Shown piece by piece: positions 5,374 through 16,398 of a stretch of DNA of 64,000 nucleotides. The notes below the pieces were generated by a model. That model was not told where the DNA came from and did not search any database. It saw only the letters and a program-made list of their open reading frames with translations. Every line of letters starts with the position of its first letter. Position 1 is the first letter of the stretch. Both the position numbers and the translations under genes were made by a program. Source of the stretch: Dyella amyloliquefaciens (GTDB lineage Bacteria; Pseudomonadota; Gammaproteobacteria; Xanthomonadales; Rhodanobacteraceae); assembly GCF_004296575.1 (NCBI RefSeq), contig NZ_SAYT01000001.1, positions 372,001-436,000 of the forward strand, in the 5' to 3' direction.

Positions 5374-8300
5374 GCATGCCGTCGTTTCTCGCCAGGCACG
5401 CGCGTGCCATCGTCATCGTGGCTTTTGCGCTGGCCCTGGCAGGCCTTGCGAGCTCCTTCACCTTGCCGGTGGGCTTGTTTCCGCAGGTGTCGTTTCCTCG
5501 CGTGGTGGTCGATCTCGATGCGGGCGACCGCCCTGCAGACCAGACCGCGCTGCTGTTGACGCGACCGGTGGAGGAGGCGATCCGCACGGTGCCCGGCGTG
5601 GCGAACGTGCGCTCGGAAACCACGCGCGGTTCGGCACAGATTTCGGTCGATTTTGGCTGGGGGCGCGACATGATCGCGTCCACCCTGCAGGTGGACGCCG
5701 CGATCGCACGCGTGCTGCCCAGCCTGCCGCCGGGCGCCACGTACAACGTGCGCCGCATGGACCCCACGGTATTCCCGATCATCTCGTATGCGCTGCAGTC
5801 GGATACGTTGTCGCCGGTGGCGCTGCACGATCTCGCGCAGTATCAGATCGTTCCGTTGCTGGCGTCCGTCGACGGACTGTCACGCGTGGACGTGCAGGGC
5901 GGCGAGACGGCCGAGCTGCAGGTGGATGCCGATCCGCGCAAGCTCGCCCAGTACGGTCTGGGGCTCGATGACCTGGTGTCGGCGCTTTCCGGCGCCAACC
6001 AGCTGGAAGCCGTGGGCCGACTGCAGGATCGCAACCAGTTGTACCTGGTGGTGGCCGATCATTCGCTGCAGCACATCGAGGCACTGCGCAAGATCGTGGT
6101 GAAGAACGATCAGCACGGCTGGGTGCGCCTCGGCGATGTCGCCAACATCCACGCAGGCTACGTGCCGCAGTGGGTGAAGGTGAGCGAGGACGGCAAGCCC
6201 GCCGTGCTGTTCAACGTCTATGAGCAGCCGGACGGCAACGCCGTGCAGATCGCGGCCGCGGTGCGGCAGAAGCTGGCGGAGTTCCGCCTGCCTACCGGCG
6301 TCAAGCTGAAGAACTGGTACGACCAGAGCGAACTGGTGGTGGAGTCCGCGCACAGCGTGCGCGATGCGGTGCTGATCGGCCTGCTGCTCGCGGCTGCGGT
6401 GCTGCTGCTGTTCCTGCGCAACCTGCGCGTCACGCTGATCGCCATGGTGGTGGTGCCGTTGACCCTCGCGGTCACCGTGCTGCTTCTGCAGGTGTTCGGC
6501 ATGAGCTTCAACATCATGACGCTCGGCGGCATTGCGGCTGCCGTGGGTCTGGTGATCGACGATGTCATCGTGATGGTGGAGCACGTGGCGCGTCGCGCCG
6601 GTGCCGCCGAAGGTGGTGGCAGGGAAGCGGTGCTGCCGGCCGCGCGCGAATTCCTCGCGCCGCTCACCGGTTCGAGTCTCGCCACGCTGATCGTGTTCAT
6701 ACCGCTGGGCCTGTTGAGCGGCGTGACCGGTTCGTTCTCCAAGGCGCTCTCGCTCACCATGGCCGCGGCGCTGGCCGTGTCGTGGCTCGCCAGCGCATGG
6801 GTGGTGCCACCGTTGCTGCGCTGGCTGGTGGATTTCCAGCGCTGGCACGATCCCGGCTTCACGCACGAGCAGTGGCTGTCGCGTTGGCATGCGCGCCTCT
6901 ATGACGGCCTTGCCCGTCGGCCCGTCTGGCTGCTGGCCATCGTGCTTCCGCTGTTGTTGATCGGCGGCATCGCCTACACCCACGTTGCCACCGGCTTCAT
7001 GCCCGCCGTCGACGAAAGCGGCTTCGTGATGGACTACTACACCAAGCCCGGCACGTCCCTGCCCGAGACGGCACGGCAGATCGGGCAGGTGGAAGACATT
7101 CTGCGCAGCATGCCGGAAGTGGATACGTTCTCGCGTCGCCTGGGCACGGGGCTCGGTGGCGACCTGGGGCAGTCCTATCACGGCGACTTCTTCGTGCGGC
7201 TGAAGCCCGATCACGCACGTTCGACCGAAGACGTGATGACCGACGTACGCCAGCACGTGGAGGGCGACGTGCCCGGCGTGCAGGTCGAACTAGCACAGTT
7301 GATGGAAGACCTGATCGGCGACCTCACTGCGGTGCCGCAGCCGATCGAGATCAAGCTGTATGCCGCTGATCCCGCGCAGCTGGTGCCGCAGGCGCAGAAG
7401 ATCGCCAAGGCGCTGGCCGATATCCCGGGCGTGGTGGAGATCAAGGATGGCGTGCAGCTCGCCGGCGATGCCCTGAACGTGCAGGTCGATGCGGACAAGG
7501 CCACCGTCGAAGGCATGACGGTAGGCGCAGTCACCCAGGCAGTGAACACCGCGCTCACCGGTGTCGTCGCCACCCAGTTGCCGCAGGCGACCAAGAGCGT
7601 GGGCGTGCGCGTACGCATGCCTGATGCGATGCAGTGGCGCTCGCCGCAATTGTTGGCACTGCCGATCCGTGCGCCGGACGGTCACGTGTTTCCGCTCAGC
7701 CGCGTCGCCAGCATCGTGACCGAGAATGGCCAGCCGCAGATCTCGCGCGAGAACCTCCAGCAGATGGTGGCCGTCACTGCGCGTATCGAAGGCCGCGGGA
7801 TGGGCGCTGCGGTGACGGACGTGAAAAAGCTGCTGGCGCAGCCCGGCATGCTTGACGCCGACATGCGCTACGAGCTGGGCGGCTTGTATCAGCAACAGCA
7901 GATCGCGTTCCTAGGCCTCACCAAGGTGTTCCTGATGGCGCTGGTGGCGGAGTTCGTGCTGCTGCTGTTCCTCTACGGCAGGCCGGGGCTGGCCGTGATC
8001 GTGATGGCGTGCTCGCTGTTTTCGGCCACGGCGGTGTTCATCGCGCTGTGGCTGTGCGGCGTCGACCTCAACATCACCGCGATGATGGGCATGACGATGA
8101 TCATCGGCATGGGCACGGAGATGGCCATTTTCTACGTGTCCGAATACGTGACGCTGGCCCGTACCCTGCCGCTGCACGAGGCCTTGCGCATCGCGAGCCG
8201 CGATCGCCTGCGCCCGATCACCATGACCACGCTGGCGGCCATTCTCACCTTGCTGCCGCTGGCGCTTGCACTGGGCGCGGGCGCGGGCATCCAGCAGCCG

Positions 8301-10192: not shown

Positions 10193-12022
10193 TCAGTGGG
10201 GAAGGTCGGCGAGCCGCTCGCTGTGTATGGCCTCGTGCGTGACGGCTTCGCCGGTAGCGGCGTCCATGTCATCGCCGTAAACCACGCGATTGCGGCCGTC
10301 GCGCTTGGCTTGATAGAGCGCGTTGTCGGCGTCGATCATCAGCTGGCGCAGTTCGTAGCCGCTGCGATCGGTGCAGGCGATACCGAAGCTGGCGGAAATC
10401 ACCACGTGACGGGTTTCGCCCCATAGCGGCGTCGCGGCAATGGCCTGGCGGATCCGGTCCGCGCGATCCAGTGCCTGTCGGGCACTGCAGTCGGGGAACA
10501 GGATGGCAAACTCCTCGCCACCGAGGCGACCAAAGATGTCGTTGCTATGCAGGTGCTGCTGGCATGCCGCCACGGCGCGCTTGAGCACCAGATCGCCAAT
10601 GACGTGGCCGTGCGTATCGTTGACCAGCTTGAAGTGGTCCAGGTCCATCAACACCAGGCACGCGCTGCGCGTGCCTCGCGCAGCCTGCCGCAGGATTTGT
10701 TCCGCTTCATCCACGAAATGCTGGCGGCTGCAGATGTGGGTGAGACTGTCCTGCGTGGCCAGTCGCTTGAAGCGCATTTGCGAGCGCTTGATGCGCAGCA
10801 GCCAGAAGGCAATCGATGCAAGCACGGTCAGCAGCAGGGCGATATACAGCCGGCTGGTTTCCATGGCCTTGTGGTCAAGCTGGCGCTGCAGCTGCAGGAT
10901 CTGGTTCTGGCGATTAAGCGTGTCTACCTGCGTTCTCTTGGCAAGGACCTGCTGCTTGATGGACTCGTAGGCCAGCGCACTGGCATTCACGTCGTTGAGA
11001 TAGCCTTTGTCCACCTCCATGTATTTCTCATGGTAGGTCAGAGCTTCGCGCGCATGGCCAAGGCGATTCTCGATCCGGTACAGCAGCTCATAAGCCTGCC
11101 GCAGTGGTTCGCTGTAAGCGTCCTCGACCTTCCCCTCGATAGTGGCCAAAGCGAACTTGCGCGCCTTGGGCATGTCGCCTTGAGCAAAATAGCCATTGGC
11201 CAGAAGTACGTTGAAGTACTGCATCAGGCCGGGGAACTTGAAGCCCTGAACTTCGGCGTAGTGCTCTTCAAGAAGATGGATGGCGTCTTCGGCGTGGCCT
11301 TTCTGGAGGTGGAGCGTGGCCAGATCGGTGCGCAGGGCATTGGCGTAGACGGCATCACCGCCCGCTATGCAAAGGTCGACACCTTGCTGGAGCTGTACGG
11401 GCGTCAACTGCGTGCTGCCGCTCTGAAAGAGTGCGTGTAGCTTGAAATACGTCGCGTGGCAGGCGTTCTTGTCTGGCGGAACGTTCTGCAGCATCTCATT
11501 GGCGGCTTCGATGGCCTGCTCGTAATGATGCGAGATCACCAGGAACTGGGCGGCCTCGCCGATGGCGGCGTAGCGAGCATCTACGTCCGAAACCTGTGGG
11601 AGCAGCTCAGTCATGCGATTGAGCTGGATAAACCCTTCCTCGTAACGATGCGCAAAGCCGGAAATATTGACCATGGTGGCCAATGCGCGCAGGCGCAACG
11701 CAGGATCGGGCGCCTGATCGGCAATGGTCCGCAATGCGGAAAAGGCTTTGGATTCGCTCCCGTCGAAAGCGGCCTGCCACGCCTCGAGATAGCGCAGCGC
11801 CCACTGTTCGTCGACGGGTAGGTTGTCGGCTACCTGGTGGAGCTGCGCGACGATCCTGAGAAATTCGTCGTGGTTCGTCGTCTTGATGCTGATGGCGCGT
11901 TGCAGGAGTTGCCCAGGCGGTTCCTGCGTGGGCATGGCATGCACAGCCATACCCACGCAGATGCCCGTGAAAGCGATAACGCTTCCCAAGAGCTGCCGGC
12001 ACGTTCTGCCTTGCCAGGGCAT
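10193..12022 (-). CDS. TPR-GGDEF diguanylate cyclase
   Basis: A 609-residue protein with a signal peptide (about 1-30, ending AVHA). An alpha-helical region of some 350 residues with TPR-like repeats is probably periplasmic. A coiled stretch, a transmembrane helix near 393-412 and a cytoplasmic GGDEF domain follow. The active-site loop is GGEEF at 501-505, preceded by DLDHFKLVNDTHGH, so c-di-GMP synthesis is expected. The inhibitory RxxD site is absent: the position reads HSND, with no arginine. The gene starts 8 bp after the putative borosin precursor stop on the same strand, so the two are probably co-transcribed. This ties a second-messenger enzyme to a peptide-modification locus by position only. 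Confidence 0.88.
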   Translation of the reverse strand: MPWQGRTCRQLLGSVIAFTGICVGMAVHAMPTQEPPGQLLQRAISIKTTNHDEFLRIVAQLHQVADNLPVDEQWALRYLEAWQAAFDGSESKAFSALRTIADQAPDPALRLRALATMVNISGFAHRYEEGFIQLNRMTELLPQVSDVDARYAAIGEAAQFLVISHHYEQAIEAANEMLQNVPPDKNACHATYFKLHALFQSGSTQLTPVQLQQGVDLCIAGGDAVYANALRTDLATLHLQKGHAEDAIHLLEEHYAEVQGFKFPGLMQYFNVLLANGYFAQGDMPKARKFALATIEGKVEDAYSEPLRQAYELLYRIENRLGHAREALTYHEKYMEVDKGYLNDVNASALAYESIKQQVLAKRTQVDTLNRQNQILQLQRQLDHKAMETSRLYIALLLTVLASIAFWLLRIKRSQMRFKRLATQDSLTHICSRQHFVDEAEQILRQAARGTRSACLVLMDLDHFKLVNDTHGHVIGDLVLKRAVAACQQHLHSNDIFGRLGGEEFAILFPDCSARQALDRADRIRQAIAATPLWGETRHVVISASFGIACTDRSGYELRQLMIDADNALYQAKRDGRNRVVYGDDMDAATGEAVTHEAIHSERLADLPH

Positions 12023-12030
12023 GATGTAGC

Positions 12031-12339
12031 TCAGGCCAGCGCGATGCGTGCGCGGCTGACGACGGAAGCAGCAAGCGCATCCTTGCTTTCTCCGCCTTCC
12101 TCTTCGCCTTCCTCTTCTTCTTCCTCTTCCTCGCGGCCTGGATTCTCGAGGACATGGAACATCGGCTGCTGTTGATCCAGCAGCGCGTAAAGATCGGAAG
12201 TGCTTCTAGCAATGATCGCAGCCCCGACAGCAGAGTCGACCTGCGACTCCACAAGCGCCTGTGCAATATCTTCCTGCGAAGCATGACGCAGCTGCGCGTC
12301 TGCCCCAAGGCGCTCAAGAAACTCGATAACGCTCGACAT
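12031..12339 (-). CDS. Putative borosin precursor peptide (SonA-like)
   Basis: A 102-residue protein with three visible parts. Residues 1-55 are an amphipathic helical leader opening MSSVIEFLERLGADAQLR, the kind of short helical domain that split borosin methyltransferases bind. Residues 58-68 (QPMFHVLENPG) are a hydrophobic stretch that I take as the candidate core for backbone N-methylation. Residues 70-84 are an acidic run with eight consecutive glutamates, followed by a basic/alanine tail ending ARIALA. The gene lies 150 bp downstream of the methyltransferase gene and 8 bp upstream of the cyclase, all on one strand. No cleavage site is obvious. A Nif11-type leader is the main alternative reading; the adjacent methyltransferase favours a borosin. 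Confidence 0.75.
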   Translation of the reverse strand: MSSVIEFLERLGADAQLRHASQEDIAQALVESQVDSAVGAAIIARSTSDLYALLDQQQPMFHVLENPGREEEEEEEEGEEEGGESKDALAASVVSRARIALA

Positions 12340-12423
12340 GGCTTAGTTTTCCCCTGATGGTCGTTTAAAGCGACACACCCCCCTGACTTGCCGTTCCCCT
12401 CTCCCCGGGGAGTACTGGGAGAA

Positions 12424-12472
12424 GGCGATCATATCGCCCTTTTTTGCCGAAAGTGTCTACGTGACACTTTCG
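12424..12472. promoter_or_regulatory. Two hairpins between methyltransferase and precursor genes
   Basis: The 150-bp spacer between the two borosin genes contains a perfect 10-bp stem (CGAAAGTGTC at 12448-12457 with GACACTTTCG at 12463-12472, loop TACGT) and a 6-bp stem (GGCGAT/ATCGCC, 12424-12438). Six T residues lie between them on the plus strand. Read in the direction of the genes (minus), the big hairpin is followed by A residues, so it does not look like an intrinsic terminator. An RNA-processing or stability role is possible. Read on the plus strand, the small hairpin plus T-run could end an antisense transcript. Confidence 0.5.
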
Positions 12473-12489
12473 CTCCGCAGCTGGCCTGC

Positions 12490-13296
12490 TCAGTCCAGCG
12501 CCGGCGCCAGGTCCAGCGCGCTCAGCCGCATCTGGATCTCTGGATCGATCTGAAGCTCGCGCCCAGGCGGCACCGCGAGGGTATCGGACATGGTGAGATC
12601 GGCCTCGGGCAACCGGGAAATGGTCAGGCGCTCCATGCGTGGAGCTTGCAGTGGCAGGGTGACGGCCCGGTAGATGGTCACTTCGTGGTCGGCGGGGTAA
12701 TCACGCAACAGCACATCCACCAGCACCTGGCGATAGGCGGGGCCGGTAGCGAAGCGGCGCCCCGTCTGTTCGCCCGCCAGCCCGACCTGCCACAGGATCA
12801 GCCATGCACTGGGGTCCACGTTTCGCCGGAACAGCATGAACTGGGTCGTATCGAAATGCTGGCAACCCACCTTGCCGGGGTCGATGCCCAGGTCGGCATA
12901 CAGGCAGTCCTCGGAGGAAATGCCCGGTTCCATGTGAGCGGCATAGCCCTCTTCACGTGCCACCTTGATCGCACGGTGGGGTGCCCAGGCGAACACGCCC
13001 GGATGACCGTAGAACACGCCGCACACGCGCTTGCCTGCACGCACCTCCGTCATCATGGCTTCCACCATCTCGCGGTAGGTCTGCGGGCGTGGCTTGCCCT
13101 CGGCGTAGTAGGGCTGGAGGCTGCGCACGTCCGGGTTCATTTCCTTGAGCCAGAGCTCGACGATGCCGTCGGAAACGGCGGTGAAGACCACCTCCGCTTT
13201 CTCGATATGGCTGCGCGCCAGCGGGCTGATGTGCGAGCCCAGGGTGATGCCGATGCCCACGCAGGCGAGGCTTCCGTTCGGGGAGGTGCTGGTCAC
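12490..13296 (-). CDS. Borosin-type peptide N-methyltransferase (SonM-like)
   Basis: A 268-residue SAM-dependent enzyme of the tetrapyrrole-methylase fold. It opens NGSLACVGIGITLGSHISPLAR, followed by YYAEG at 63-67, R70, Y74, YGHPGVF at 96-102 and MEPGISSEDCLYADLG. This wording, including the Tyr/Arg set and the DPGKVGCQHFDTTQFM region, matches from memory the SonM family that methylates backbone amides of a separate precursor. True tetrapyrrole methylases differ in these segments. The GTG at 13296 is chosen because it gives SonM-like length and has CGGAG upstream. The reading frame stays open to 13599, but the extra 101 residues look non-coding. The proposed precursor lies directly downstream. 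Confidence in family is high; the product is unknown. Confidence 0.88.
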   Translation of the reverse strand: MTSTSPNGSLACVGIGITLGSHISPLARSHIEKAEVVFTAVSDGIVELWLKEMNPDVRSLQPYYAEGKPRPQTYREMVEAMMTEVRAGKRVCGVFYGHPGVFAWAPHRAIKVAREEGYAAHMEPGISSEDCLYADLGIDPGKVGCQHFDTTQFMLFRRNVDPSAWLILWQVGLAGEQTGRRFATGPAYRQVLVDVLLRDYPADHEVTIYRAVTLPLQAPRMERLTISRLPEADLTMSDTLAVPPGRELQIDPEIQMRLSALDLAPALD

Positions 13297-14674: not shown

Positions 14675-16240
14675 TCAGGAGGTGCCGGTCGGTGTCCCGC
14701 TTCCCGTCTTCATCGCCGCCAGAGCGGTCAGCAGCGCCTGTCCCTTCGGGCTGCCCAGGCCGGTACATGCATCCCAGCCCTTGCCTGCCTTGAAGCTGCC
14801 GTTGTTGCCGCTGGTGATGTCGTGGAACGCGGCAGCACCGATGGTGTAGAGCGCCTCATGCGGATCGCCCAGGCTTTGCCCGAGTTGCTGGTTGCAGCGC
14901 GCGATCAGTGCAGCCCACAACGGTGCGACGGCACTGGTGCCACCGATCACTTCATTCTGTCCGTCCACGCGCACCTGATAGCCGGTGACGGGATCGGCAT
15001 CGCCCGCGACATCGGGCACGCCGCGTCCAACGAAACCGTTGGTGCCTGCGGGAACCTTGGATGAGGCCTGCCATGCGGGCAGGGCGAAGCTCGCGCTGAC
15101 GCCGCCGCCGGTGGCACCCTCGTTGCTGGCCTGCTCGTTCCACACTGTTTCGCTCTTGATGGACGTGCCGCTCGCGGTGAGCTTGGTGCCGCCGCATGCC
15201 AGCACGAAGGGACTGGAGGCGGGGAAATCCACGTGCGGCTGGCCGTCGGTGTCGCCATCCGTCGAACCGCTGTCGCCACTGGCCGCCGTCACCGTGACAC
15301 CCAGCGCCACGGCATCCGCCAGCGCACTCTGCATGGCGGCGAGCGACGAGGCCGACCAGCTGTCCTCGGGCCCGCCCCAGCTGATGGAGATGACGGAGGG
15401 ATGCCGCGTCGCGTCGTGCGCGGCCTGCGAGATCGCTTCGTAGAAGCCCTGGTCGGTGTTGGGTGCGAAATACACGGCGATGGATGCGCCGCTGGCCAGC
15501 GAACCGATCACTTCCACATCGAGCATCACCTCGCCATCGGCATCGCCGCCCGGTTGGCTGGTGCCGCCGGCCACCGACACCACGTCGACGGTGGGAACCT
15601 TGGTGATGCCCAGCGTCTGCATGTACTGGGTGAAGTCCGCCGGCGTATAGCCACCGCCCAGTTCAAGGATGGCAACGGTCTGGCCCGTGCCATCGGTGCC
15701 ATCCGGGAAGGCATAGAACTGCCCGACCTGCGGTGGCGTGTAAGAGACGCCGCTCGCAGACGCGGCCAGCCGACGGAAATGCGGGCGGGCCACCGGGCGC
15801 TGGTCCAGGCCCAGCACGGCGATCACCGACGAAGAAATGTCCGACGGCAGCGCCGGCTTGTCGTGGCAGCCGATCATCGTCGGGCCCGCATCGCCCATCT
15901 GGTAGCTGCCCAGCTGCACGCCGAACGCCTGCTGCAGCTGCTGCGGCGTGCCGCGCAGGTGCATCACGCGCCGATGCAGTTCGCAGCCGGTTTCGGTGAG
16001 GCCGTGGCTCTGCGCGAAACTGCGCAGCTTCTCGGCGTCAGCGGGATCGGCGCCCCATTGCGCACCGAAATCCTCGCGCTTGCTGGCGGGCCGGTGCGGC
16101 CAGGCCGCAGGCGTGGGGTGATCGCCGCGGCGGCGCATCACCAGGGTGACATCGATGGGTTCGTTGCCTTGGTGGGGTCCCAGGTAGCGGGCTTCGGCAG
16201 CGAGTGGCCAATGGCTGGGTCGGGCGGTGGACTTGCTCAT
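14675..16240 (-). CDS. S53 family peptidase (sedolisin/kumamolisin type)
   Basis: A 521-residue serine-carboxyl peptidase with an N-terminal activation domain (about 1-160) and a subtilisin-fold catalytic domain. The catalytic set is visible: E237 and D241 in GEVMLDVEV, oxyanion-site D323 in SGDSGS, and nucleophile S436 in GGTSAVAPLWAAL. A C-terminal calcium-site-like region (DITSGNNGSFKAGKGWDACTGLGSP) is present. The ATG at 16240 follows a strong GAAGGAG; an upstream in-frame ATG at 16321 lacks one. No classical signal peptide is seen, which is common in kumamolisin-like proteins. It probably degrades protein at acid pH after export or autolysis. Confidence 0.92.
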   Translation of the reverse strand: MSKSTARPSHWPLAAEARYLGPHQGNEPIDVTLVMRRRGDHPTPAAWPHRPASKREDFGAQWGADPADAEKLRSFAQSHGLTETGCELHRRVMHLRGTPQQLQQAFGVQLGSYQMGDAGPTMIGCHDKPALPSDISSSVIAVLGLDQRPVARPHFRRLAASASGVSYTPPQVGQFYAFPDGTDGTGQTVAILELGGGYTPADFTQYMQTLGITKVPTVDVVSVAGGTSQPGGDADGEVMLDVEVIGSLASGASIAVYFAPNTDQGFYEAISQAAHDATRHPSVISISWGGPEDSWSASSLAAMQSALADAVALGVTVTAASGDSGSTDGDTDGQPHVDFPASSPFVLACGGTKLTASGTSIKSETVWNEQASNEGATGGGVSASFALPAWQASSKVPAGTNGFVGRGVPDVAGDADPVTGYQVRVDGQNEVIGGTSAVAPLWAALIARCNQQLGQSLGDPHEALYTIGAAAFHDITSGNNGSFKAGKGWDACTGLGSPKGQALLTALAAMKTGSGTPTGTS

Positions 16241-16398
16241 GGCGAACTCCTTCGGGGGAAGCGAAAGGAAGACTGCACCGACAAATGTGTCGAAGATGCC
16301 TTCGCAATTTGGTGCGTTCATGCATGATGCGGGTGGTTGGTCTCATCCGCCGCGTCAATGCGCTCCGCCGGCAAACCGGCGATGAGGCGCTAAAATGA

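Follow-up and report, generated by a model that had tools for sequence, protein, structure and literature searches.

The closest described system is the split borosin SonM/SonA of Shewanella oneidensis, in which the methyltransferase and its precursor are separate proteins (PMC8429565). According to the available text of that paper, mutation of the SonM active-site residues Y58, R67, Y71, and Y93 reduces turnover or, in the case of Y93, apparent SAM affinity. No biological role for bacterial split borosins was found in the accessible part of the split-borosin literature, and the words diguanylate and GGDEF are absent from the main text of PMC8429565 in its available form. A second point of reference is the RcbA/RcbB pair of Vibrio vulnificus (PMC12282931), which, as far as its available text goes, resembles the locus described here in that its GGDEF domain is under the control of a TPR domain, with the operon partner lifting the repression. 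RcbA is itself a TPR protein and not a borosin precursor, and no methyltransferase is named in that text; by analogy, the pair offers an earlier example in which an operon partner acts via a TPR domain on GGDEF. A link between borosins and cyclases was not found among the matches listed in the open-access literature or in the main texts, where no paper pairs a borosin with c-di-GMP, and for SO1480 no paper was found in the open-access literature. The gene order described below may have been noted before in other literature.

The window, a stretch of 64,000 nucleotides of the Dyella amyloliquefaciens genome, carries on its minus strand three consecutive genes, here called M, A, and D. M (12490..13296, 268 aa, GTG start) encodes a SonM-like alpha-N-methyltransferase, A (12031..12339, 102 aa, ATG start) a borosin precursor, and D (10193..12022, 609 aa) a protein with a signal-like N-terminus, a TPR sensor, a transmembrane helix, and a GGDEF diguanylate cyclase domain. 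The reading frames of the enzyme and the peptide had been proposed in a sequence-only reading of the window, and both are found in place on the minus strand; the third gene is absent from that reading. The gap between M and A is 150 nt and that between A and D is 8 nt. Two inverted repeats, GGCGATATGATCGCC and AAAGTGTCtacgtGACACTTT, lie between M and A at 12424-12470; the former has an expectation of 0.29, and the latter appeared in 0 of 100 shuffles, its pattern having been picked after it had been noticed. The nearest named loci belong to Dyella jiangningensis (91%) and Dyella sp. EPa41 (88%). Outside the window (G000:C1:261846-262634), the same genome holds another copy of M, which is 61% identical and has its own A and D.

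The best PDB match of M is SonM (E 7.2e-77), followed by the fused borosin enzymes dbOphM, OphMA, and MroMA (5e-50 to 1.5e-46). M and SonM have 124 of 242 aligned residues in common (51% identity), and the four SonM active-site residues listed above correspond to Y64, R70, Y74, and Y96 of M; R70 and Y74, which the sequence-only reading had picked out in a series of SonM-like motifs, do align with R67 and Y71. All four are invariant in 15 of 15 chosen homologues, and M has the features of a borosin-family methyltransferase with its active site kept. In Pfam, M matches only the tetrapyrrole methylase fold (2.3e-19). None of the NCBIfam corrinoid methylase models passes (11.5-15.5 bits, cut-offs 92.9-391), and the score with the NCBIfam YabN model is 36 at a cut-off of 525. 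The identification of M as an ordinary cobalamin or siroheme methylase is therefore rejected, since SonM and the OphMA-type enzymes lead its PDB matches and the corrinoid models score far under their cut-offs.

The A protein alone gives no significant match in Pfam, NCBIfam, or PDB, its best NCBIfam line being an NHLP-related RiPP peptide under the cut-off (E 0.07). A profile of 18 Lysobacterales A proteins, built without SonA-like members, retrieves the SonA chains first in PDB (E 2.9e-6). The AlphaFold model of A, made from an alignment that included SonA-like members, shows residues 2-54 as five helices, followed by a tail modelled with low confidence; in a fold search with this model the top PDB entry is SonA (rmsd 2.3, TMt 0.75), though at an E of 1.4 the match is weak. 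On the strength of the profile match, the modelled helices, and the fold match, residues 1-54 (12178..12339, minus strand) are predicted to form a leader with a five-helix, SonA-like binding domain. The likely core, PMFHVLENPG (residues 59-68, 12136..12165, minus strand), is placed by its position after the leader and by comparison with SonA 62-71; it is followed by the glutamate-rich run EEEEEEEEGEEE (residues 70-84, 12088..12132, minus strand). The helical leader and the polyglutamate run had both been noted in the sequence-only reading, and both hold. An iterated leader profile finds a matching reading frame in 124 of 140 fetched M loci, some of them not beside D.

A is a separately encoded precursor that adjoins its methyltransferase, with a leader that corresponds to the borosin binding domain. 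Because both partners are homologous to SonM and SonA, the catalytic residues are kept, and the gene order agrees, the M-A pair is, as judged from sequence, a new member of the type IV split borosins, as had been proposed for a separate enzyme and precursor. It has in common with SonM/SonA two separate proteins, an enzyme that is 51% identical and keeps all four active-site residues, a leader made of helices, and a precursor gene followed directly by a GGDEF gene. It differs in the length of the precursor (71 aa in SonA, 102 aa in A), in the core, and in the acidic tail, and this Dyella has two genomic copies of M. The earlier suggestion that both core and setting are unlike those of SonA is upheld for the core and the acidic tail and not supported for the setting. 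The genome G1128, from the genus of G851, encodes a protein 100% identical to SonM over 253 residues and one identical to SonA over the 69 residues shown, and is therefore taken to be S. oneidensis or a very near relative; in it, the frame of a cyclase opens immediately behind the stop codon of sonA and is in frame with it.

The D protein has the sequence features of a diguanylate cyclase: a GGDEF domain (residues 422-579, 10286..10759, minus strand; Pfam E 3.7e-40) with an intact GGEEF signature at 10508-10522. Hydropathy indicates a hydrophobic N-terminus and a predicted transmembrane segment at 389-412 (10787..10858, minus strand). For the sensor between them (modelled as residues 28-392, 10847..11941, minus strand), the Pfam TPR matches are under the cut-off, and the AlphaFold model (pLDDT 91.2) folds into a TPR superhelix whose last helix is long. 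Cysteines 188 and 218 are invariant in 30 of 30 sensor sequences, which suits a periplasmic sensor. An RxxD inhibition site, seen in 90 of the 120 A-linked D frames, is missing from the D of the window, which has HSND just before the signature.

From the homology of the components and the pairing of A with D, we lean towards the view that the methylated A peptide is a ligand of its paired cyclase, its methylation, release, transport, and binding each being presumed. M, A, and D would then form a three-gene cassette, in which M methylates backbone amides of the A core while A docks by its helical leader, as SonA does with SonM. The core would be cut off and reach the periplasm, and there the TPR superhelix of D may recognise it as a dedicated ligand, with a resulting change in the synthesis of c-di-GMP. 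A and D would be a paired unit of signal and receptor, and M a common maturation enzyme that may serve A peptides encoded elsewhere. Speculatively, methylation could confer peptidase resistance and membrane crossing without a dedicated exporter. The fold of the sensor bears on the ligand reading in both directions: in its favour, the model is a TPR superhelix with the peptide receptors Rap-CSF and NprR-NprX among its Foldseek matches; against it, TPR folds match many proteins and eukaryotic LGN TPR complexes rank first in Foldseek. Bacterial and phage structures among the best 50 matches include a STAND protein, Rap-CSF (TMq 0.61), NprR-NprX, a phage Rap, and a Parabacteroides TPR protein; for the modelled sensor, all these matches denote fold likeness only. 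The Rap/NprR receptors have a TPR superhelix like that of the D sensor, a likeness of the common repeat only, at 10-12% identity. They are peptide-pheromone receptors of the RRNPP group, cytoplasmic proteins of Gram-positive bacteria without GGDEF.

The tails of the A proteins could instead suggest that A stays inside the cell as a modified protein, uncut and unexported, and acts on D or on neighbouring proteins from within the cytoplasm, with the acidic tail as one conceivable means. No signal peptide is present in A, and the tails are long and acidic where D is present: in L032-L131, outside four loci devoid of D, 103 A proteins have tails of mean length 33 aa with 30% D/E (this set comprises 100 of the M matches listed, mostly from the top, about 25 of mostly the weakest being left out and three fetched later). 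The four loci with M, a short A, and no D (L087, L111, L112, and L122) encode five A proteins with tails of 9-15 aa and 0-22% D/E, that is, without the acidic tail. An action of this kind would also be in line with that of the Vibrio RcbA, which in the available text of PMC12282931 has its operon partner, the TPR-GGDEF protein RcbB, as the target. On the other hand, the sensor appears to face the periplasm: by crude hydropathy cut-offs and for frames of at least 500 aa, a signal-like N-terminus is found in 108 of 120 A-linked D frames and a transmembrane segment between sensor and GGDEF in 117 of them, and the cysteine pair is invariant (the GGEEF signature is present in 119). In addition, the SonA-type A genes with D have no acidic tail. 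We regard an intracellular role of A as quite unlikely and retain the ligand reading. As a side observation, L122 lies near an integrase-like ORF, judged by eye.

M is common, not rare, in the order. It was detected in 89 of 148 near relatives (E up to 1e-3) and, at E up to 1e-20 and with the own genome included in each count, in 144 of 299 sampled genomes of the order, 10 of 369 of the class, and 15 of 398 of the phylum. With SonM as the query, 101 of 117 genomes in the genus of G851 match. In 95 of 100 near-relative loci, M is followed on its own strand by a GGDEF gene no more than 3.3 kb away (one contig is too short and four loci have none), and such a gene also follows M in 16 of 20 further loci hand-chosen from the order-wide matches (L261-L280; three upstream, one none). 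The same holds for 75 of 80 named loci, a set overlapping the near-relative genomes (four short flanks, one none), and for 20 of 20 loci of the SonM genus, hand-chosen from 15 of the 101 M-bearing genomes. Outside the order, where all 20 listed M matches were taken (L241-L260), GGDEF follows M in eight, lies upstream in one and on the other strand in one, and is missing from ten, whose M proteins are 25-43% identical. From 25 GGDEF genes in 4.83 Mb, the chance of finding one near M is below 1% per locus, a figure that ignores kinship, the M loci being related and not independent trials.

The linkage might be an inherited operon structure without functional coupling, as descent can preserve gene order and some M-A loci have no D. 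Pairs located away from M argue against this. A TPR-GGDEF gene follows directly after A in 14 of 14 examined cases in which A lies at least 87 kb from M or on another contig (sensor E 4e-40 to 2e-128); this set leaves out G117:C372 on a small contig, the weak matches G033:C292, G053:C11, and G011:C11:216158, and the same-contig A matches near M in G096, G097, G111, G114, and G115. Reciprocally, a search of 31 relatives gave 41 D-sensor matches (E 1e-10 or better), 40 of which are preceded by A at no more than 600 nt, the remaining one being at a contig start. Moreover, the same order is kept in the SonM genus, even though the likeness of the sensor there is 20-27% or not detected. Inheritance alone is in our opinion very improbable, and the 14 distant pairs and the reciprocal adjacency lead us to treat A and D as a unit, as the ligand reading would have it. 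Among the same 31 relatives, 42 of the 50 A matches have D within 1000 nt and eight do not; 22 of these genomes have the D sensor, all 22 with M, and seven of the nine genomes that lack the sensor also lack M. An A match was found in 55 of 91 genomes, 54 of them with M, and the other match is weak (E 6.5e-4); M without an A match occurs in three genomes. A distances track D distances beyond M (partial 0.53 vs 0.33, 118 pairs with a sensor match), a relationship confounded by phylogeny.

The arrangement is not uniform. Two or three A-D pairs stand behind one M in L050, L072, L119, and L103, the last with three pairs, and the order A-D-M occurs in L257, L278, and L279. L280 reads D-A-M, with A not directly before D, and in L241 A is on the other side of M. 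An additional D lacking an A match is present in L093, L100, L104, L116, L118, and L270, and D is found with no A match in L125, L126, L128, L252, L254, and, in the SonM genus, L321. The ligand reading is weakened by the M-A loci devoid of D, by the D genes devoid of A, by the eight A matches with no D after them, by the deviating orders of L280 and L241, by the ten M loci outside the order with no GGDEF gene close by, by the seemingly interrupted D frames of L313 and L328, and by the relatives not being independent.

The close spacing of A and D is also compatible with a reverse direction of control, in which D senses an outside cue and its c-di-GMP governs the making or release of the borosin, itself a secreted natural product of the ordinary kind. 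A sensing role is plausible for D, and the start of D is close to the stop of A, as in one operon (93 of 123 gaps within -12 to +20 nt, measured from the first in-frame start, so that true gaps may be larger). Yet a single upstream regulator would not need what is seen here, with distant and tandem A genes each accompanied by its own D, and a secreted product is not suggested by the neighbourhoods either: no conserved exporter stood out in the 14 largest neighbour clusters at 43 hand-picked loci, nearly all D-positive, with ORFs below 90 aa excluded. Four of these clusters were identified by sequence and the rest by position and strand, a survey that may miss small conserved genes and less common exporters. 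We consider control of borosin production by D unlikely. The methylated peptide as ligand of D is itself made less secure by these data, because no exporter stood out and A has no signal peptide.

Shewasin A, a pepsin-like protease, reportedly cuts a borosin precursor. Pepsin-like ORFs with DTG motifs were found within 3 kb of M in 6 of the 43 loci (L125, L126, L249, L261, L275, and L277), which fits this report; the six ORFs belong to one family, and a PF00026 match was seen for that of L125. A maturation peptidase of this type was rejected for Dyella, with PF00026 present in 4 of 61 relatives and in 0 of 20 genomes of the genus of the window. Upstream of M, the window carries an S53-type peptidase gene (14675-16321, minus strand; Pro-kuma_activ E 2e-11). 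Such a gene occurs near M in 11 loci of the same genus, together with other neighbours such as ALAD, and elsewhere the S53 search gave one weak match on the opposite strand (L050, 30%). As it moves with these other neighbours, its proximity to M looks like plain synteny, and it was dismissed as a partner.

A wider generalization, which we offer tentatively as a reasonable possibility without going so far as to favour it, is that the split borosins of the SonM clade, sonM-sonA included, constitute a peptide-signalling family of Gram-negative bacteria. Stable, possibly membrane-crossing methylated peptides would be ligands of paired periplasmic TPR-GGDEF receptors, tandem or scattered pairs would be served by one methyltransferase, and a cell could have several private inputs into c-di-GMP. 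The pairing of A with a cyclase, both across the order and in the genus from which the crystallised SonM/SonA comes, yields the specific prediction that the methylated peptide controls c-di-GMP. Should this prediction hold, second-messenger signalling in Gram-negative bacteria would receive direct input from a ribosomal peptide with a methylated backbone.

Several loci depart from the simple arrangement in other ways. Within the SonM genus, L319 has one A and two D genes, L324 has three A genes and one D, and D seems to be interrupted in L313 and L328. In L344, one of the 14 loci with A distant from M, the A leader is split over two frames. Finally, in L273 (G1029) an A gene at 6998-7333 just upstream of M has four core-like repeats xFCxxxTPE and, from its sequence, looks like a multi-core precursor; no D is nearby, and an HlyD-like ORF, judged by eye from the sequence, lies downstream.
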